Below, in pieces: positions 39,330 to 43,109 of a stretch of DNA of 46,350 nucleotides. Position numbers and translations under genes: made by a program. The DNA comes from a virus, in IMG/VR virus record IMGVR_UViG_3300020147_000006, positions 1 to 46,350 of that record; one strand, written 5' to 3'. How positions within the stretch are numbered: the first letter of the stretch is position 1; each line of letters opens with the position of its first letter. The notes beneath the pieces are model-generated. The model ran no database searches and was not told the DNA's origin. It worked only from the letters and a program-made list of their open reading frames with translations.

Positions 39330-39833
39330 TCACGCCGCTTCCAGGTCTTCCAGCGGAATTTCGACAGGCCGCTCCGTCCCGAGCATTGGGATGATGATCC
39401 GGGCCGCGCACCCGTTGATGCTGTCGATGGGCACGATCCAGTGTTGCAGCGGGCCACGCATGATCTCCACCTTATCGCCTGCCACGAACGCTTTGTGAAC
39501 CCGGCTGGAGCGCGTTGGAACCGAGCCGCCCGACATGCGCGCGAGGCGCTGGATGGCGTCTTCCGAGATCATGGCGGGTCGGCCGTCGAATCCGACCACG
39601 CCCTGCACCAGCCCGCGTTCCCGATAGGCGCGGATCACGTCCCAGGGGTCAGCCCCCGACGCGAACACGTACCGGGGCAGCATCGGGTAGTTGTGCGGGA
39701 CCTTCCGCTGCCGGCCCACGCGCTTCCATTTGACCTCGGTGGGAGTGAAGGCGCGCATCCCGCGGCGTTTCAGTATCTCCTCCACCGCAAATTCTCTCTG
39801 CGGGGCGGTCCGAAGGGCGTACCAGCTTGTCAT
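39330..39833 (-). CDS. NusG-like transcription antitermination factor
   Basis: 167 aa. The N-terminal NGN domain (MTSWYALRTAPQREFAVEEI, FTPTEVKWKRVGRQRKVPHN) and a C-terminal KOW-like strand set (FVAGDKVEIMRGPLQHWIVP) match the NusG/RfaH family. NusG paralogues encoded on mobile elements often let RNA polymerase read through terminators of one long operon. Here it would suit expression of the very long late arm. ATG 39833 has GAGGA upstream. It ends before a strong terminator. Confidence 0.8.
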   Translation of the reverse strand: MTSWYALRTAPQREFAVEEILKRRGMRAFTPTEVKWKRVGRQRKVPHNYPMLPRYVFASGADPWDVIRAYRERGLVQGVVGFDGRPAMISEDAIQRLARMSGGSVPTRSSRVHKAFVAGDKVEIMRGPLQHWIVPIDSINGCAARIIIPMLGTERPVEIPLEDLEAA

Positions 39834-40321: not shown

Positions 40322-40464
40322 CCCGGCGCCCTCCGCGTGACCCTGGTCTTGCGAGACTTTTTCTGTCTGATCTTGGCGCTGGCATCGAGGCCGTAGCCGG
40401 CGATCCGTTCGGGCTTGCCGTCTTTGATGCGAAAGCCCTTGAGCTTGATGCGGTGGCCGGTCAT
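40318..40464 (-). CDS. small basic protein, 48 aa
   Basis: 48 aa: MTGHRIKLKGFRIKDGKPER, IAGYGLDASAKIRQKKSRKT then RVTRRAPG. Very basic, with the DASAKIRQKKSRKTRV end that recurs in small proteins of alphaproteobacterial phages. ATG overlaps the GcrA stop (ATGA). Possible nucleic-acid binding; unproven. Confidence 0.6.
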   Translation of the reverse strand: MTGHRIKLKGFRIKDGKPERIAGYGLDASAKIRQKKSRKTRVTRRAPG

Positions 40465-41027
40465 CACAGCAACTCCAGTTCGCGGAAATTCCTGGCTTGT
40501 GGAACGCGCTGTTCGAAACTCCCCGTGACGCCTCGGTCTTTCCGACCGGGATGCCCTTTAGGACTGCCTAACCGCACCGGAACCCCGTTGAACGCCTTGC
40601 CGTGGTGGCCTGGGCAGTACGGAGAACCCGGAAGTTTCTTGCAGCCGCAAAAGCCGAAGTCGGCGCTCTTCGGATCCCCGTATGGATAGCGGCACTGGTT
40701 GTCTTCAAGGTCGATCAGCTTGAAGAGTTTGGCGGGGCGCTCGGGCTCGGGCGGGAGAGGTTCGCCAGAAAACGTCGGCGCGAAAGGCTTCTTGTCGGAG
40801 CGCACGTGGAAATATTTCGGCTTGCGTTCCTTCTGGCGGGCTGCCTTCACGTCCCGCTTGCGCCGGATCATCCGCTGCGCGACCCGATGGCCGCCGAGCC
40901 CCATGCGATGCAGCTTGCCGATCACAGCGTTGCGGGTCACGCCGCCCAAGCGCGCCGCGATCAAGCTGCAGCTCAGCCCGTCCGACCAGTGCTTTTTCAG
41001 AAGTTCAACGCGATCGTCATTCCACAT
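40464..41027 (-). CDS. gcrA: GcrA-family cell-cycle regulator
   Basis: 187 aa. The N-terminal domain MWNDDRVELLKKHWSDGLSC, SLIAARLGGVTRNAVIGKLH is the GcrA DNA-binding helix set; the C-terminal QCRYPYGDP, FCGCKKLPGSPYCPGHH is the conserved part that contacts sigma-70. The middle linker is shorter or diverged from host GcrA. GcrA activates promoters carrying CcrM-methylated GANTC sites, so a phage copy could redirect the host cell-cycle programme or time phage promoters. G-rich ribosome site before ATG 41027. Confidence 0.88.
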   Translation of the reverse strand: MWNDDRVELLKKHWSDGLSCSLIAARLGGVTRNAVIGKLHRMGLGGHRVAQRMIRRKRDVKAARQKERKPKYFHVRSDKKPFAPTFSGEPLPPEPERPAKLFKLIDLEDNQCRYPYGDPKSADFGFCGCKKLPGSPYCPGHHGKAFNGVPVRLGSPKGHPGRKDRGVTGSFEQRVPQARNFRELELL

Positions 41028-41029
41028 CG

Positions 41030-41821
41030 TCAGCCCCCGCTGGTTGCTTCGCCGGTCATGCGCTCGGATCGTTCCGTCAATTTCGGAAGTTGCTTGATGT
41101 GCGGCAGCGGGCTGTCGTCTTTCGGCCAGCGACTGCCAATGGTCATGATCTCGCCAGCGGCGATCGCGCGCTGCTCGAGGTCGTCACGGCCAAGCTTTCG
41201 GAGATGGACCATCCAATGGTCCCACTGGCAGTCGTTCGAATGGATTTCGAAGGTCGGGACTGCCTCCCGCACTTCACTTTTCAAACCAGATTTTGAATCT
41301 TCGCGCGCACGCGCGTTGGTGGTTCTAGATGGTGGTTCTAAAGTGGTGTTTCGTGGCTCACCAATTGAGCCTCTTATTTTTCCGGGTGAGCCCCTTAATT
41401 CGTCCGGTGAGCCGCTTCCGTCGCTAAGGGGCTCACTCTGAGCCCCTTCTTTTCCACAATCATCCACAGCTGATTTTTGGACGATCACGAACCGATCTGC
41501 AGCCTCTTCGTCGCGCTGGATCTCGTCGTAGCCATCGTGCAGACGCATCAGCATCCGCAGGTTGAATTCGTACTGCGTCGTGGAGCGGGGGCCCTTGCCG
41601 CCTTCCTCGATCACCGTCAGCAGCCCGACCTCGCGGAAGCCAGCCAGGATGCGCTTCACCGTGGCGAGCGAGGCCTGCGCGTGCTTGGCGAGCGTGTCGC
41701 GCGCCGGGTGGATCGAGCCGCCCTCGTCGTTGGCGTAATCGGCCAGCTTGAGTGCTATCAGCAACGTGCTTTGCGACGGCCAGGGAATATCCCAAACAAT
41801 CGACATCAGGCGGATGCTCAT
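41030..41821 (-). CDS. replication initiation protein (O-like, wHTH)
   Basis: 263 aa. The N-terminal winged helix (PSQSTLLIALKLADYANDEG, GSIHPARDTLAKHAQASLAT, VKRILAGFREVGLLTVIEEG) is typical of phage replication proteins of the lambda O/helix-turn-helix replication class. A charged low-complexity middle (Ser/Gly/Pro/Arg) is encoded by the iteron DNA, as lambda O encodes its own origin. The C-terminal part (WDHWMVHLRKLGRDDLEQRA) may contact the helicase. No helicase or loader gene was found, so host DnaB is likely recruited. The ATG overlaps a short leader frame. Confidence 0.8.
   Translation of the reverse strand: MSIRLMSIVWDIPWPSQSTLLIALKLADYANDEGGSIHPARDTLAKHAQASLATVKRILAGFREVGLLTVIEEGGKGPRSTTQYEFNLRMLMRLHDGYDEIQRDEEAADRFVIVQKSAVDDCGKEGAQSEPLSDGSGSPDELRGSPGKIRGSIGEPRNTTLEPPSRTTNARAREDSKSGLKSEVREAVPTFEIHSNDCQWDHWMVHLRKLGRDDLEQRAIAAGEIMTIGSRWPKDDSPLPHIKQLPKLTERSERMTGEATSGG
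41354..41449. other. iteron array of the putative replication origin
   Basis: Copies related to TGAGCCCCTTA at 41366-41376 (T variant), 41387-41397, 41408-41418 and 41439-41449, with an inverted copy at 41425-41435 and a partial inverted one near 41355-41360. The first three are spaced 21 bp apart, two helical turns. They lie within the initiator gene, next to AT-rich stretches and DnaA boxes, as in lambdoid origins. Confidence 0.65.
41450..41468. other. two DnaA boxes at the origin
   Basis: TTTTCCACA (41450-41458) and TCATCCACA (41460-41468), each one mismatch from TTATCCACA, in the same orientation 10 bp apart. Directly beside the iterons. Confidence 0.6.
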
Positions 41822-41984: not shown

Positions 41985-43037
41985 CTACGCCGCCGCCGCG
42001 AGCCGGGGCTGGGCCGCGAACTCGCGCAGCGACTTGCCGCCGTCGCCGAGACGAGCCAGGACCTCCCAGAACTCCTTCAGGCTGACCTCCTTGGCCGGTG
42101 CACCGTTGACGTGAAGGTGCATGGCGCCGTCCGGGGCCTTCTGGAGAGCCGTGCGGAAGTCCTCGGCGGGCTTCAGAGGCTCTGCGTCGCTCTGCCGGGA
42201 CGAACTCCGGATGCCGCTGTAGGCGATCGAGAGGCAGAACGGAGCCAGGTACGTCGTGATGGCGGCGATGATCGCGCCGAGCACCAACTGCGTCCACGAG
42301 AGCGCCGACTGCGAGGGCTCGTCAGACCATGTGGCGATCTGAGCAAAGCCTGCCGTCTGGTTGACGATCTTTGACGAGTGATACTCCGTCGTGTCCGCCA
42401 CCTCGACCTTCTTGTCGATAACGCGCTGCGTTGCCTCGATGCGCGCCGTGAGGTCGGCGGCCTGCTCGACGGTGGCGACCTTTTCTTCGAGCGCGCCCTT
42501 CTCCATCATGAGGGCGAGGCACTTGGGGCCGCAGCCGCCGCGCGCCTTCTCCTGATCAATCGCCATCGTTGCGGCTTCGATCTGAGCTCGCAGGCCGTCA
42601 GCCTTGACGGTAGTTGCCCACGCGTTCTGCTCCATCAGCGTTGCGAGTTGCTCTTTCCACAGGTCGAGATTCGCCACCTCGCGGTCGCGGCTCTTCTGCG
42701 CTTCAGCGTATCGGGTGTTCTGCACGCCGGTCTGCTGGGTGTCGGAAACCCGCGTGCCGACGGTGTAGCCGAAGTGCGTGCCGTACTCGCCAACCGAGAA
42801 ACAAACGCCGGCAATGGTTGCAATGATGGCGGCGGTGGAGCGGCCGCTGGAGCGGTAGATCTCGGCGCCGATGAACGCGATCGAGACGGCGATCGCGAGC
42901 AGGCCGAGAATGATGGCGTGCAGCGTGCTCATGGCGCGGCCGTACTCGAAGGCCATGCCCATGCCGACGAGCAGGGCGGCCAAACCAACGTAGAGGGCCG
43001 CCTTTCGGACGGCAGCTTCACTGAGGGCGGAATGCAT
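41985..43037 (-). CDS. multi-span membrane protein with periplasmic coiled coil, 350 aa
   Basis: 350 aa from ATG 43037 (GGAGGATT upstream). Three N-terminal spans (ALYVGLAALLVGMGMAFEYG, LHAIILGLLAIAVSIAFIGA, AAIIATIAGVCFSVGEYGTH), a coiled-coil region of about 150 residues with a Cys pair (GGCGPKC), then a further span (TQLVLGAIIAAITTYLAPFC) and a cytoplasmic tail. Same layout as the 299-aa protein at 38348. First large gene of the leftward early operon. A role in envelope sensing, exclusion or replication anchoring is possible; none is shown. Confidence 0.7.
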   Translation of the reverse strand: MHSALSEAAVRKAALYVGLAALLVGMGMAFEYGRAMSTLHAIILGLLAIAVSIAFIGAEIYRSSGRSTAAIIATIAGVCFSVGEYGTHFGYTVGTRVSDTQQTGVQNTRYAEAQKSRDREVANLDLWKEQLATLMEQNAWATTVKADGLRAQIEAATMAIDQEKARGGCGPKCLALMMEKGALEEKVATVEQAADLTARIEATQRVIDKKVEVADTTEYHSSKIVNQTAGFAQIATWSDEPSQSALSWTQLVLGAIIAAITTYLAPFCLSIAYSGIRSSSRQSDAEPLKPAEDFRTALQKAPDGAMHLHVNGAPAKEVSLKEFWEVLARLGDGGKSLREFAAQPRLAAAA

Positions 43038-43109
43038 ATCGGAATCCTCCGTTGCGGGGAGTTGGGGGAGACGCGGGGGACGCAACAAAGGACACGAGGG
43101 CGGGGTCGT

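Follow-up and report, generated by a model that had tools for sequence, protein, structure and literature searches.

The origin of phage lambda provides the experimentally established layout in which iterons and a low-stability tract lie inside the initiator gene (PMC7466680). On the staphylococcal plasmid pSK41, the origin encodes a dispensable linker of the initiator (PMC5703833). Strand-specific repeats have been described for other origins: TrfA binds only a single strand of the RK2 13-mers (PMC4081077), and the DnaA-trios and the DnaD recognition element of B. subtilis are strand-specific repeats of an unwinding element (PMC10201434).

Here, we analyze an IMG/VR virus record of 46,350 bp, referred to as the window. 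It carries genes for an integrase, a portal, a terminase and a major head protein, and the phage is therefore probably temperate. Within its O-like initiator gene, we find a repeat array whose site we consider to be the replication origin with a probability of roughly 0.9. According to the mechanism that we propose, positions 41273-41470 would form a theta-type origin embedded in the phage's own initiator gene. The winged-helix N-terminal domain of the O-like protein would bind the AAGGGGCTCA iterons, which comprise an inverted pair and direct copies phased by 21 bp, and the resulting nucleoprotein complex would open the adjoining low-stability segment (approximately 41317-41352). On the opened strand, the AACCACCA repeats of the coding strand may then serve as a strand-specific signal for loading of the initiator, followed by the helicase. 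This phage is probably also assisted by two DnaA boxes upstream, which stand outside the shared design. That the site is an origin in which the second repeat has an unwinding role is, in our judgement, likely. The sequences provide repeats beyond chance, independence of the reading frame, a conserved layout, strand bias, low stability and helix co-variation; iteron binding, opening, helicase loading and origin activity are what we infer from them.

An array of iterons within the initiator gene

All features of the locus are compiled in Table 1. In a profile search, residues 1-204 of the initiator protein match PHROG 391 ("replication initiation O-like", E 1.5e-12). The same protein has no match to Pfam PF04492 Phage_rep_O at E 0.1, a profile which lambda O as positive control matches at 5.7e-36, and none to RepA_N. 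AlphaFold2 models codons 1-110 with a pLDDT mostly above 90. The fold matches of this domain are winged helices including the N-domain of DnaD (Z 8.3, tied with many others); no single family stands out among them, and the initiator has no close solved relative by sequence. Codons ~120-157 are modeled with low confidence, such that the array-bearing linker is probably disordered.

Table 1. Features of the proposed origin and of its neighborhood in the window.
Feature	Position	Strand	Basis or remark
NusG-like transcription antiterminator gene	39330-39833	-	Profile matches
GcrA-family cell-cycle regulator gene	40464-41027	-	PF07750, 2.7e-37; directly 3' of initiator gene
O-like replication initiator gene, 263 aa, containing the putative origin	41030-41821	-	HTH_36 7.3e-6; phrog_391 1.5e-12
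Least stable 30 bp of the gene	41273-41302		DNA almost unchanged in closest relative (L010)
GC palindrome CGCGCG-TG-CGCGCG, after second repeats	41302-41315		Stems in relatives
Second repeat AACCACCA, copy 2, 13 nt on, other frame	41317-41324	-	Repeat search
Second repeat AACCACCA, copy 1, within TAGAACCACCA	41330-41337	-	Family-wide strand and frame statistics
Possible third, diverged copy of second repeat, AAACACCA	41344-41351	-	Weak on its own
Degenerate inverted iteron, GGCTCA core 41355-41360	41351-41360	+	Repeat search
Iteron AAGAGGCTCA, 1 mismatch	41366-41375	-	Repeat search
Iteron AAGGGGCTCA, exact, 21 bp from neighbors	41387-41396	-	Repeat search
Iteron AAGCGGCTCA, 1 mismatch	41408-41417	-	Repeat search
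Inverted iteron AAGGGGCTCA, exact	41426-41435	+	10-bp hairpin with 41439-41448
Iteron AAGGGGCTCA, exact	41439-41448	-	0/2000 synonymous shuffles reach array
DnaA-box-like site TTTTCCACA, 1 mismatch	41450-41458	+	Pair in 1/2000 synonymous shuffles
DnaA-box-like site TCATCCACA, 1 mismatch	41460-41468	+	Pair in 1/2000 synonymous shuffles
Codons 1-110, winged-helix N-terminal domain, proposed iteron reader	41492-41821	-	AlphaFold2, fold matches, co-variation
Gene upstream of initiator, function unassigned	41985-43088	-	DNA comparison

The array spans 41351-41448, i.e., codons ~124-157, and thus follows the DNA-binding domain. Its 10-bp unit with a GGCTCA core occurs in four direct and two inverted copies, whereof three are exact, two carry one mismatch and one is degenerate. 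A preliminary description of this DNA had placed TGAGCC-type repeats, three of them at 21-bp spacing, in the linker of the O-like gene. They are indeed found there, at 41366, 41387 and 41408 and once more at 41439, within codons ~120-157 of the minus-strand gene 41821-41030. Its count of one inverted repeat has to be corrected to two, with inverted GGCTCA cores at 41355 and 41430. Nowhere else in the 46-kb window do six copies of one non-palindromic 6-mer fall within 95 bp. When the codons of the initiator gene were shuffled synonymously, keeping protein and codon usage, none of 2000 shuffles reached the array. A blastn comparison of the region with phages gave no match over the origin.

The two near-consensus DnaA boxes named in the same description are real, each with a single mismatch. 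A pair this close arises in only 1 of 2000 synonymous shuffles of the initiator gene, while the number of one-mismatch boxes in the whole window (three) is close to the 2.6 expected. Among 125 array-bearing relatives (see below), a DnaA box lies near the array in ten (~8%), with 13 boxes in total versus 5.5 expected. We therefore rejected DnaA boxes as a general part of the design; they are a minority feature and probably a lineage-specific, local addition. The A/T-rich stretches that had been noted as well correspond to segments of low stability (the least stable ones at approximately 41449-41479, 41323-41352 and 41273-41302), but the effect is modest only. GC skew, suggested earlier as a check, has its cumulative minimum at 42090, near the site; its amplitude is small and we give it no weight.

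The GcrA-family gene suggests an alphaproteobacterial host, and a phage which interferes with, or uses, the cell-cycle methylation circuit of that host. The CcrM methylation site GANTC is about threefold rarer than expected over the whole window (71 versus 225), which fits a CcrM/GcrA host. One GANTC site, at 41295-41299, is located at the edge of the putative origin beside the GC palindrome. No gene for a helicase loader (P-like) or a helicase was recognized among the window ORFs scanned. In Mesorhizobium phage vB_MseS-P1 and in a Microcystis phage, NusG-like genes lie directly 3' of the initiator gene. At the DNA level, the gene preceding the initiator is 69% identical to a sequence in MW202785, a podovirus assembly from Manatee Spring.

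Conserved position and changing sequence of the iterons

As no relatives were obtained when IMG/VR was scanned with only the window protein, we turned to alignments of the N-terminal domain. The resulting collection drew on IMG/VR, GTDB genomes and GenBank phages and comprised 333 genes, which were reduced to 160 representatives at 60% identity; the loci fetched include Pseudomonadota, Actinomycetota, Verrucomicrobiota, and others. Cultured phages among the relatives are, for instance, Arthrobacter phage Marchesin, Sphingopyxis phage VSN-002 and Mesorhizobium phage vB_MseS-P1. Arrays were defined by 11-mers with at most one mismatch on both strands, and were called significant if reached by at most 2 of 40 synonymous shuffles.

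By this measure, 125 of the 160 representatives carry a significant iteron array in the same place of the O-like gene. It starts at nucleotide 265 of the gene (median of 125 genes), just past the winged helix. The remaining 35 have no significant array in the 11-mer test, and many of these carry the second repeat described below. Iteron spacing peaks at 22 and 17 bp, neither of which is a multiple of the codon length. Several relatives reproduce the layout of the window, i.e., a direct copy, an inverted one about 12-16 bp on, and then direct copies about 22 bp apart. The iteron sequences themselves fall into approximately 64 different groups.

Similarity of the iterons tracks the recognition helix, with a partial r of 0.295 (0 of 500 permutations), compared to 0.215 for the rest of the domain. 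Eight gene pairs share at least 65% identity in the helix and less than 50% elsewhere; they have on average 10 of 11 iteron positions in common. In the closest relative, L010, residues 1-30 and the bulk of the C-terminal part are preserved, while recognition helix, linker and iterons have all changed together. Directly past the repeats, almost every shared codon is again identical. Both the co-variation and the pattern in L010 are what an initiator that reads sites in its own gene should look like.

Such sites might also be operators, through which the initiator or another regulator controls transcription, with the true origin located elsewhere. Winged-helix proteins are often repressors, many of the solved fold matches are transcription regulators, and an autoregulatory block by an array well within the gene is conceivable. 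However, PHROG, Pfam and the deposited annotation of relatives indicate replication. Operators usually lie upstream, whereas the arrays hold a constant position inside the linker, and a low-stability tract with strand-specific repeats directly adjoins them, as in lambda (PMC7466680). We consider operators unlikely and retain the origin as our reading.

A second repeat on the coding strand

Comparison of the linkers revealed a second repeat directly 3' of the iterons, which reads AACCATCA, AACCGTCA or AACCACCA and is usually present in two to four copies. In the 125 array-bearing representatives, repeats of this AACCRTCA type occur 165 times on the coding strand, where synonymous shuffles predict 26.5 (sd 3.5), and three times on the other strand, where 4.1 are expected. 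An unbiased count of 6-mers leads to the same picture, with AGAACC in 68 genes versus 19.2 and its complement in none. The density amounts to 1.63/kb in these genes and to 0.03-0.04/kb on the other strand and in 616 kb of flanks. Using the looser form AAYCNYCM, 196 of 235 sites start 0-60 nt beyond the last iteron. Neighboring copies are mostly 10-12 nt apart, with a peak at 11 and a range of 9-14 nt. The reading frames of the copies differ in 62 of the 70 genes with at least two of them, and all three frames are used, giving EPS/KPS, NHQ or RTI.

These frame statistics bear on a simpler account, by which the repeats arise as a consequence of a linker that is repetitive (RGSPG-type, EPS-type) and disordered, and have no role at the level of DNA. 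The linker is disordered in the AlphaFold2 model, and the iterons at 21-bp spacing indeed specify similar peptides, in one and the same frame (RGSP/RGSI). Yet shuffles that keep the protein never give the array (0/2000), the inverted copies belong to the opposite strand, the main spacing in relatives is 22 or 17 bp rather than a codon multiple, and the second repeat is read in three frames. For the family, repeats driven by the protein are refuted by frame and strand statistics together with the synonymous shuffles, and for the window we regard this account as highly improbable.

In the window, a pair of second repeats spaced 9-13 nt arises in 1 of 2000 synonymous shuffles. These repeats (41317-41351) lie just outside the range of the preliminary description and are more conserved than the DnaA boxes. 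Further variants in the family are AACCAGTCA, the ACCCCTCC type, GATCCRTCA and GAACCGTCC. Gene pairs with a similar N-terminus and an unrelated C-terminus have the same variant in 374 of 379 cases, but those with a similar C-terminus and a dissimilar N-terminus in only 9 of 33. Because agreement follows the N-terminus, the second repeat seems to belong with the iteron/N-terminal module, a pattern that plain physical linkage could explain as well.

When IMG/VR was searched blindly for the triple repeat, 86 sites were obtained, 54 of which are in genes with an O-like N-terminus. Many of the remaining sites represent a 12-nt tandem repeat, AACCGTCACCGN, in other genes, or are in records cut near the site. 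The tandem repeat was seen on other virus contigs in genes without an O-like N-terminus (L366, L369, L370, L372, L411, L441, and L442) and is, as far as seen, unrelated to the origin motif. It must be excluded when the AACCRTCA motif is used as a detector. In a Parageobacillus phage (L098, Firmicutes), a different tandem repeat, AACTATACTCATTT, follows the iterons at approximately nt 410-450 of the initiator gene; possibly, this is a Gram-positive counterpart of the AACCRTCA element.

In 78 of 125 genes, compared to 20.5 expected, the 30 bp with the lowest stability are those of the second-repeat segment. The window itself has its absolute minimum just past the second repeats, with the second-repeat segment ranking second-lowest; its AACCACCA copies are a more GC-rich variant of the repeat. 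Stems after the second repeats are longer in relatives than expected (5.66 versus 4.39 bp), while the GC palindrome of the window is not unusual on its own within the window.

We conclude that the AACCRTCA repeat is very probably an element at the nucleic-acid level, and we read it as a sequence-specific element for unwinding and helicase entry. That it acts as a single-strand signal is slightly short of an even chance. At an origin, it could instead be bound as double strand by a protein of the host or the phage, or act as RNA within the O transcript. With 10-12 nt, successive copies are spaced by roughly one helical turn, and the fixed orientation would suit an RNA, as the transcript crosses the site. 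On the other hand, the full range of 9-14 nt is loose for helical phasing, the low stability of the region, the lowest in the gene, exceeds what the encoded protein demands, and the repeats immediately adjoin the iterons, as do the strand-specific repeats for unwinding in RK2 (PMC4081077). We rate a role as duplex site or as RNA less probable than not, yet a serious alternative.

Returning to the element as a guide for unwinding, we propose, as a tentative generalization that may well fail, that AACCRTCA represents an unrecognized strand-specific origin code, common to phage initiators of a very large family whose iterons are otherwise unrelated. The N-terminal module would first read the changeable iterons as double strand and, after opening, the constant repeat on one strand, thereby fixing the strand for the helicase. 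In the open-licence papers covered, we found no mention of AACCRTCA-type repeats in phage origins.

Comparison with described origins

From one suspected origin, a rule emerges for a widespread class of phages and prophages, in which sequence alone suffices to propose an origin, namely by iterons in the linker of the initiator that are followed by AACCRTCA repeats on the coding strand. Two questions become separable by this, how the specificity for iterons changes while the rest is kept, and whether the strand to be loaded is indicated to the machinery by a short, constant repeat.

The lambda O/ori design in an unrelated sequence, as suggested before, remains the best reading of the locus, given the match to phrog_391, the frame-independent arrays, the same linker and the changing iterons. 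As in lambda and its Stx phage relatives (annotation of L091), iterons lie beside a low-stability tract in the part of the gene encoding the initiator linker (PMC7466680). In contrast, lambda O has no sequence similarity to the window protein, belongs to a different Pfam family and uses other iterons. Lambda lacks AACCRTCA and has an A/G-rich tract where the relatives of the window have these repeats. The gene after the initiator is P in lambda and GcrA-like in the window.

In pSK41, the N-terminal domain binds boxes central in its own gene (PMC5703833), and the window protein has a DnaD-like winged helix among its fold matches. However, pSK41 is a plasmid with a RepA_N domain, for which the window protein has no match. 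For Gordonia phage initiators, exchange of the N-terminal winged helix with a kept C-terminus is reported (PMC10684548), as observed between the window and L010; that report does not appear to treat the origin. In phages of the window type, a swap of the N-terminal half appears to alter the iterons and repeats or to take them along.

The 13-mers of RK2 and the DnaA-trios and DnaD element of B. subtilis resemble AACCRTCA as short repeats on one strand of the DNA that is opened next to the sites of the initiator. They differ from it in motif, in spacing and in their reader. Unlike these elements, AACCRTCA is common to many iteron types and lies inside coding sequence, and its single-strand binding is presumed. 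The lambda-type origin and domain swapping in phage initiators (PMC10684548) have been reported before, and what appears to be new is the strand-specific repeat.
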